A stretch of 44,032 nucleotides of DNA from NCBI GenBank assembly GCA_002691825.1, contig NZIZ01000021.1, positions 1 to 44,032 on the forward strand. The letters are read 5' to 3'. The position numbers and the translations under genes were made by a program. The notes under the pieces were generated by a model. That model did not search any database. It saw only the letters and a program-made list of their open reading frames with translations, and was not told where the DNA came from. This stretch comes from Porticoccaceae bacterium (GTDB lineage: Bacteria; Pseudomonadota; Gammaproteobacteria; Pseudomonadales; Porticoccaceae). Of the stretch, positions 36,005 to 44,032 are shown in pieces. Position 1 is the first letter of the stretch. Every line of letters begins with the position of its first letter.

Positions 36005-36058
36005 AGGTAACATACCATAAATACTGTGTATATATACAGTATTTATGGTATGTTACCT
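36005..36058. repeat. 54-bp palindrome upstream of dnaE2
   Basis: Two exact 23-base arms (36005-36027 and 36036-36058) are reverse complements around an 8-base spacer (36028-36035). It starts two bases after the dnaE2 start codon region (upstream on the minus strand) and ends at the base next to the stop codon of the retropepsin-like gene. The centre is a LexA box; the arms extend the symmetry about 19 bases beyond it on each side, more than LexA needs. Confidence 0.9.
36024..36039 (-). promoter_or_regulatory. LexA (SOS) box of dnaE2
   Basis: CTGTGTATATATACAG fits the gammaproteobacterial LexA consensus CTGT-N8-ACAG, with an AT-alternating core and TA on both flanks. It lies 22 bp upstream of the dnaE2 ATG on the minus strand, as expected for an SOS-controlled mutasome gene. 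Confidence 0.88.
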
Positions 36059-43174: not shown

Positions 43175-44032
43175 TTAGGCAAATATTCCATGTAGGTGCC
43201 ATCTCTTGCTCTGTTTTTCCCAATATAACCAGTAACGTGATCCTTGAGAATCATGCGCGATATAATAATCGCGCTGTTGCTCACCTTGCCACCAGTTGTC
43301 AGATAAGCGTTCAGGCCCACGTAACAGCGTCAAGGGTTTGTTCCAGTAAGGTTGATTATCGAGGTTTTGTAATCGTAAAGGTGTATTTGTCAGCCACAGT
43401 GGTTGTAATGGCAAATGTCTACCACTTGATGTTTTGGGAGAGCATATGTCGGCAGCTAGATTAGCTTTTTCTGGTAAGTACTCTGCCTGAAAGCAGGGTT
43501 GATATATAGTATCAGCTCCTAACTTAGCTGTGACCTGATCTAAAAAATGAACTTTCTTTATATATTTTTTAGTAAGAAAAAAATCTAAGTTTTCATTAGT
43601 ATTAATAATGAATTCCTTGCTAGATAAAACAATTCTTTCGATACTATTTGGTAAATTAATTCGTTCAAGTTGCAAACGACTGAGAGTGAAAAAAATGTCA
43701 GAGCCATGACATGGATGTGATAATTTAATGACCATAGATTTTGGTTGTCCTTGCATTGGAGAGAATTGCCAATAAATCTTTTTGCAGTTTACCTGATGAG
43801 TGCGGAGATGCTTTTGGAGTCGTGCCAACAATATTTTCATTGGTTTATATAAATCTTCTTTGCTATAAAATCCGCTAGGATTTTCTAGCATATCTTTGAA
43901 TTTTTTAGGTGCTATATATCGTTCTTGCAAATCATTTTGAGCAGTTAAGAGACTTATTTTGTAGAGTATTTTATTATCAAATCGACGGCATATTGAGGTG
44001 CTTGGTAGAGTTAGAAAATCACCTACAGTGAT
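43175..44032 (-). CDS. imuB: ImuB, Y-family polymerase-like protein, 5' part outside window
   Basis: The minus-strand frame is open to the right edge, so the N-terminal part is missing. Going upstream from the apparent TTG at 43930, the frame reads ITVGDFLTLPSTSICRRFD, the helix-hairpin-helix thumb of Y-family polymerases. The visible end carries the ImuB signature: PLWLTNTPLRLQ, LLRGPERLSDNWWQGEQQRDYYIA, then RYWLYWEKQSKRWHLHGIFA. ImuB lacks polymerase activity and links ImuA and DnaE2 to the beta clamp in mutagenic repair. It should be followed by dnaE2 but is separated from it here by 7.2 kb. Convergent with the acyl-CoA ligase, 20 bp away. Catalytic residues cannot be checked because that part lies outside. 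Confidence 0.92.
   Translation of the reverse strand: MTVGDFLTLPSTSICRRFDNKILYKISLLTAQNDLQERYIAPKKFKDMLENPSGFYSKEDLYKPMKILLARLQKHLRTHQVNCKKIYWQFSPMQGQPKSMVIKLSHPCHGSDIFFTLSRLQLERINLPNSIERIVLSSKEFIINTNENLDFFLTKKYIKKVHFLDQVTAKLGADTIYQPCFQAEYLPEKANLAADICSPKTSSGRHLPLQPLWLTNTPLRLQNLDNQPYWNKPLTLLRGPERLSDNWWQGEQQRDYYIAHDSQGSRYWLYWEKQSKRWHLHGIFA

Follow-up and report, generated by a model that had tools for sequence, protein, structure and literature searches.

The dnaE2 gene of the window (here, the whole 44,032-nucleotide stretch of Porticoccaceae DNA that was analysed) follows a LexA operator that is ordinary as an operator and unusual as an evolving sequence. It is a LexA site with recurrently perfected arms that keep no fixed letters, and template switching by DNA polymerase is the leading cause. 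We give a probability of about 55% to the reading that the long arms were made and re-made by such switching (quasipalindrome correction), judging from comparisons among operators.

Palindrome at the dnaE2 operator

The palindrome spans positions 36005 to 36058 (unstranded) and has an 8-nt centre flanked by two exactly matching arms of 23 bp each. The arm adjoining dnaE2, which is the downstream arm for that gene, lies at 36005 to 36027 (+ strand). The arm adjoining the stop codon of the upstream gene lies at 36036 to 36058 (- strand) and is the exact reverse complement of the first. The AT-rich centre (36028 to 36035, unstranded) reads GTATATAT. Three of its four pairs are symmetric; the outer pair (G/T) is mismatched and the inner three match. 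Over the whole palindrome, 26 of the 27 possible pairs match. The initial annotation had called the symmetry perfect over 54 bp, which is right for the arms and slightly overstated for the centre.

The symmetry is centred exactly on a LexA box, TACTGT-N8-ACAGTA, at 36022 to 36041 (unstranded), which is the conserved core. The LexA-type operator described earlier is therefore present in exact form, and the gene behind it matches NF004225 (1369.8 bits). The E. coli-type LexA box is CTGT-N8-ACAG, according to excerpts of PMC3323433.

On the - strand, the gene order is an aspartic-protease-like gene (37201 to 36059), the 54 bp of palindrome, 2 bp and dnaE2 (36002 to 32874). The upstream stop codon, TAG (36061 to 36059), abuts the palindrome and bounds it, and the dnaE2 ATG (36002 to 36000) is 2 nt from its other end. 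The palindrome fills the whole intergenic gap, as first described. No Shine-Dalgarno-like sequence was seen by eye before dnaE2, in agreement with the earlier remark that no ribosome binding site is visible.

Gene content around the operator

The regulated gene, dnaE2, encodes an error-prone DNA polymerase of 1042 aa. The upstream gene is co-directional and has weak TPR matches; the models matched are TIGR02281 (below cut-off), PF13975 and PF13650. The nearest named relative of the window's genome (G000) is a Porticoccaceae metagenome genome (L042) with a DnaE2 identity of 99%. In G000, a LexA box also lies 73 bp upstream of recA (L003).

The mutagenesis cassette is split. A match to imuA (NF033429, 147.0 bits, just below the cut-off of 150) lies further along the contig of dnaE2, in the region G000:C32:43900-50000 (L005, - strand), with other genes occupying about 7 kb between this region and dnaE2. 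The imuA gene has its own LexA box at C32:45423, with arms of only 7 bp. An open reading frame at 43175 to 43930 (- strand) resembles the C terminus of ImuB by eye and matches no family model; undetermined bases lie beyond it.

On sequence grounds, the palindrome is a LexA operator that serves dnaE2, a gene standing alone here, and LexA would bind it. Excerpts of PMC3323433 describe a mutagenesis cassette regulated by LexA, and the window's operator shares with the operators described there the core motif, the regulated gene and the position beside the start codon. It differs in that the symmetry extends 15 bp past the usual 7 to 8 bp per side, with unconserved letters. It also differs from that cassette in that dnaE2 is apart from imuA, with an operator of its own.

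Search for other copies

This palindrome is the only perfect inverted repeat in the 44-kb window with arms of at least 14 bp and a loop of at most 12. With up to three mismatches, the arm pattern matched only its own two arms in the window and had no match in 100 shuffles. Among 14 genomes of the same genus, the arm with up to three mismatches was present in 3, only at the dnaE2 operator. The exact 22-base form of the arm was present in no viral contigs.

Mobile and dispersed elements often contain long inverted repeats, and the footprint of such a repeat that carried in the LexA site had been offered as an alternative. Against this stand the confinement of near-matches to one operator, the lack of further copies in the window and the absence of the exact 22-mer from the viral contigs. 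We consider this origin highly improbable, with the caveat for the dispersed-copy search that G000 is rated 73% complete.

A phage origin was rejected. Matches were found in 18 phage records with a best E value of 5e-3, and each covered less than half of the 81-base query and was centred on the LexA core. An intrinsic terminator of the upstream gene was also rejected. The combination of stem and T-run is absent on the - strand, and the one match is on the + strand only.

Operators within the genus

Genes for dnaE2 were found in 12 of the 14 same-genus genomes. The LexA box lies 20 to 21 bp from the ATG in all 12 operators, and one half-site in L010 is CTGG. The arms are at least 12 bp in 9 of the 12 and 21 to 24 bp in 7 (L009, L011 and L016 to L020; the arms of L019 have one undetermined base each). 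The palindrome of L010 is long and imperfect, L015 has arms of 13 bp, and L012 to L014 have arms of 5 to 9 bp. L010 is from the closest relative (G010, 98.3% dnaE2 identity). In L012 to L014, the arm region is one base shorter on each side of the centre than in L009 to L011, by eye.

The arm letters beside the box are GGTAACATACCATAAA in the window, TTAGCTTAGCACAAAG in L016 and L017, TTATTCTACCAAAAT in L018 and TGTGATTCTATCAAATT in L020. Arm sequences differ between subclades, and both the core and its spacing from the ATG are conserved. The symmetry therefore returns with other letters. The initial annotation had reasoned that arms varying freely around a conserved core would point to chance or to a recent event. 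The search of the genome and its relatives found a conserved core and a turnover of arm letters, yet the symmetry itself recurs, which is a third outcome.

The long arms are most probably not a recognition sequence, and LexA would act through an ordinary 20-bp box. Binding of the arms by LexA or by a second protein, with a longer footprint, would fit a symmetry centred exactly on the box, but the arm letters are unrelated between subclades that share box and spacing. Such binding is very unlikely. DnaE2 identity within the genus is 69 to 74% where the symmetry persists, and symmetry that outlasts so large a divergence could reflect selection.

Survey of operators

We collected 247 dnaE2 loci, which gave 143 distinct operators after removal of 26 loci without a box within 300 bp, 72 duplicates and 6 without upstream sequence. 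In this set, which favours long arms because the most symmetric box was kept if several lay within 300 bp, arm length peaks at 5 to 8 bp. It is at least 12 bp in 30 operators, at least 15 bp in 24 and under 12 bp in 113.

Over pairs 9 to 20, at least 8 of 12 matches were found in 24 dnaE2 operators (about 1.1 expected with right arms permuted) and in 3 of 74 imuA operators (0.5 expected). Chance symmetry was rejected on this excess, on the shuffles and on the uniqueness of the repeat in the window, and its probability is practically negligible. The symmetry beyond the LexA footprint that the initial annotation had pointed out is neither chance nor unique to the window. On the DnaE2 tree, the long-arm state changes at least 16 times, compared with 27.6 for shuffled labels. 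The trait is therefore inherited, yet repeatedly gained or lost.

For the counts per gene, every box was included. Arms of at least 12 bp occur in 28 of 139 distinct dnaE2 boxes, 10 of 78 imuA boxes, 18 of 40 imuB-like boxes and 3 of 15 integron-integrase boxes, so that the last three have the same long-arm tail as dnaE2. They occur in 0 of 9 recA boxes (a poor control, all from the window's genus, with none listed from 30 second-family recA loci), 1 of 49 lexA boxes (mostly tandem and weak, also a poor control) and 2 of 22 other exact boxes. One of the last two is yebG (PF07130). Integrase identity was confirmed for two loci (TIGR02249 in L058 and L280), and the imuB-like protein of L087 carries an IMS domain (PF00817).

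Taken together, such arms occur in 59 of 272 mutasome and integrase boxes and in 3 of 80 elsewhere (P 8e-5). A purely mutational model must attribute this excess to seed strength. When the boxes are restricted to exact TA..TA, the counts are 50 of 225 and 2 of 26 (P 0.12), which weakens the proposal that mutasome operators are distinguished by long arms. The gene preference may reflect seed strength, as mutasome boxes are stronger dyads from the start. Many long-armed sites first classed as other proved to be imuB-like or integron-integrase operators. When imuB and intI operators were counted as other, the contrast was reversed (arms of at least 14 bp in 13 of 74 versus 27 of 177).

Integron-integrase genes lie near upstream of dnaE2 in some relatives, and their LexA boxes have arms of 17 to 21 bp (L058:763-782, L278 and L280). 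In the imuB-like operators of L087 and L095, palindromes with 19-bp arms include the imuB-like start codon, and other imuB-like operators of this group differ by paired changes. Many of the second-family lexA loci (L392 to L421) have two weak boxes about 17 to 19 bp apart, mostly without extended arms.

The fetched loci contained 2.1 Mb, overlaps included. Distinct perfect inverted repeats of at least 14 bp numbered 46 with a LexA box and 11 without, a count biased toward box-bearing repeats because the loci were chosen for LexA-linked genes. Two of the 11 are LexA boxes with one altered half-site.

Template switching as the probable cause

According to excerpts of PMC7202029, quasipalindromes are hot spots of mutation, at which the nascent strand serves the polymerase as template and the repeat is made perfect. 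Template switching also homogenises arms and inverts spacers (excerpts of PMC8604942), and it can create and maintain perfect stems by several simultaneous paired changes (excerpts of PMC8794818). The same three sources document template switching in E. coli, yeast and RNA genes (PMC7202029, PMC8604942, PMC8794818).

At the operators surveyed here, the seed would be the LexA box, whose short half-sites form an inverted repeat around an AT-rich centre of 8 nt. On the box, the nascent strand would fold back, and one flank would be rewritten as the reverse complement of its partner. Switching events that hit the upstream gene or the start codon would be lost by selection. Such purifying selection at the stop and start codons would explain why the palindrome fills the non-coding gap.

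Perfected arms without conserved letters, by which template switching is recognised, occur at the dnaE2 operators. For a single switching event at any locus, the signs would come from comparisons of extant sequences, and no one sign is decisive alone. In L110, two adjacent arm bases are AA (not TT) and fit the other arm, unlike in its four nearest relatives (92.7 to 93.5% identity); one of these is one base shorter at that place, and the comparison was made without ancestral reconstruction. L295 and L296 differ by four consecutive paired changes. Paired A-T to T-A swaps, which are unreachable by any single G-U step, separate L009 from L011, L018 from L020 and L265 from L268. Paired changes outnumber unpaired changes 34 to 6, a biased count in which both members had to be long-armed and not all pairs are sisters. 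L019 and L020 have centres that are reverse complements of each other, a weak sign in AT-rich 8-mers, and the same two centres are also found in distant pairs. The sequences of G000 and G010 disagree at 8 of the 54 palindrome positions and at 41 of 1042 dnaE2 third positions (P 0.002). G000 and G002 have no such excess, with 7 of 54 palindrome positions and 121 of 1042 third positions (P 0.67).

Of 30 arm types listed by hand, 22 end between -4 and +6 nt from the start codon, compared with 16.2 expected by permutation (P 0.003). Arm length is only weakly related to the distance from the start codon (Spearman 0.31, P 0.11; median gap P 0.29). At dnaE2 of L114 and L156 and at the imuB-like operators of L087 and L095, the arms extend into the start codon. 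This is expected if a coding flank overwrites a non-coding flank, and a hairpin that hides the start codon predicts the same.

The operators share with the quasipalindrome and template-switch products in excerpts of PMC7202029, PMC8604942 and PMC8794818 the perfected arms, the paired and multi-base changes and the rapid turnover. They differ in being seeded at a repressor operator, repeatedly, in orthologous and related operators, by events that we infer.

RNA folding and promoter position

RNA across the palindrome folds at -42.1 kcal/mol (z -6.99), and 0 of 200 shuffles were as good. The very long hairpin proposed earlier is therefore possible in RNA that crosses the palindrome. In silico, RNA starting at the dyad centre is less structured than shuffles (z +1.8), and with this putative start site a stable stem at the start codon is predicted only in the long RNA.

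Among second-family imuA operators, 60 of the 64 distinct ones have a TTG that is separated from the TACTGT downstream of it by exactly one 17-bp spacer. The left half-site is therefore probably the -10 element, and transcription probably starts in the dyad centre. No promoter was recognised on the dnaE2 strand within the window. The SOS-induced message would probably not contain the hairpin, since transcription appears to start in or just past the dyad centre. Inverted repeats are under-represented immediately ahead of start codons in E. coli, and the authors who describe this propose an RNA-based reason (excerpts of PMC6060812). This depletion suggests that the functional dnaE2 message likely does not contain the whole hairpin.

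These results also bear on a two-stage lock under selection. LexA would block the SOS promoter, a hairpin in read-through RNA would mask the start codon, and the SOS transcript would start inside the dyad, without one arm, and be translated. T4 gene e and IS10 transposase are precedents for a hairpin lock on read-through RNA. The fold across the dyad, the weak structure of centre-started RNA, the imuA TTG spacing and the arm ends near the start codon are consistent with this lock, and the regulated genes promote mutation or recombination.

Mismatches inside the arms do not support the lock. Across the surveyed operators, no G-U bias was found (7 G-U versus 11 A-C, small numbers; background 212 versus 203). 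Nor are long arms confined to co-directional read-through settings. The nearest upstream open reading frame is co-directional at four long-armed loci (L009, L039, L049 and L017) and divergent at seven (L043, L051, L076, L104, L114, L091 and L110), by mechanical calls of frames of at least 150 aa, with L059 ambiguous and too little upstream sequence for L016 and L020. Both results weigh against selection for an mRNA hairpin as the general explanation. The weak relation of arm length to distance, the lack of a recognised promoter on the dnaE2 strand of the window and the presence of arms in just 30 of 143 dnaE2 operators also count against it. We hold the two-stage lock as a tentative and rather unlikely alternative. 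The suggestion in the initial annotation that an RNA hairpin insulates or blocks translation keeps its stable fold in long RNA and is otherwise doubtful.

As with the translation-blocking hairpins of T4 gene e and IS10, RNA that crosses the dyad would hold the start-codon region at a stable stem; RNA started in the dyad would not. Unlike those systems, the window operator has no G-U signature and no Shine-Dalgarno sequence to hide, and long arms also occur beside divergent neighbours.

Cruciform extrusion of the perfect arms under negative supercoiling could hide the promoter or compete with LexA. Arms that are Watson-Crick perfect without G-U, an AT-rich centre and independence from the direction of the upstream gene would all suit a cruciform, but most orthologous operators (113 of 143) have arms under 12 bp. 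We regard extrusion as quite improbable.

Implications

No published description of extended arms at LexA operators was found in the literature searched, from which subscription journals were mostly absent. Template switching remains the preferred reading of the arms, and it may also be joined to selection. The SOS operators of mutator genes (dnaE2, imuA, imuB and integron integrase) would then be self-extending, with the LexA dyad as a template-switch hot spot and letter-free palindromes selected as a second lock, RNA hairpin or DNA cruciform, escaped only by dyad-born transcripts. This combination is speculative, and we would not favour it at present.

A repressor operator that keeps the symmetry of its flanks without keeping their letters recurs at orthologous and related SOS operators of two marine families. 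If the cause is mutational, template switching in wild bacteria has left a natural record in these operators, and symmetry that reaches past a protein footprint should not be taken for function. If the arms are selected, mutagenesis genes carry a second lock that does not depend on particular letters. In both cases, natural variants offer a test of whether a long perfect palindrome in front of a gene can be assumed to be a regulatory RNA.
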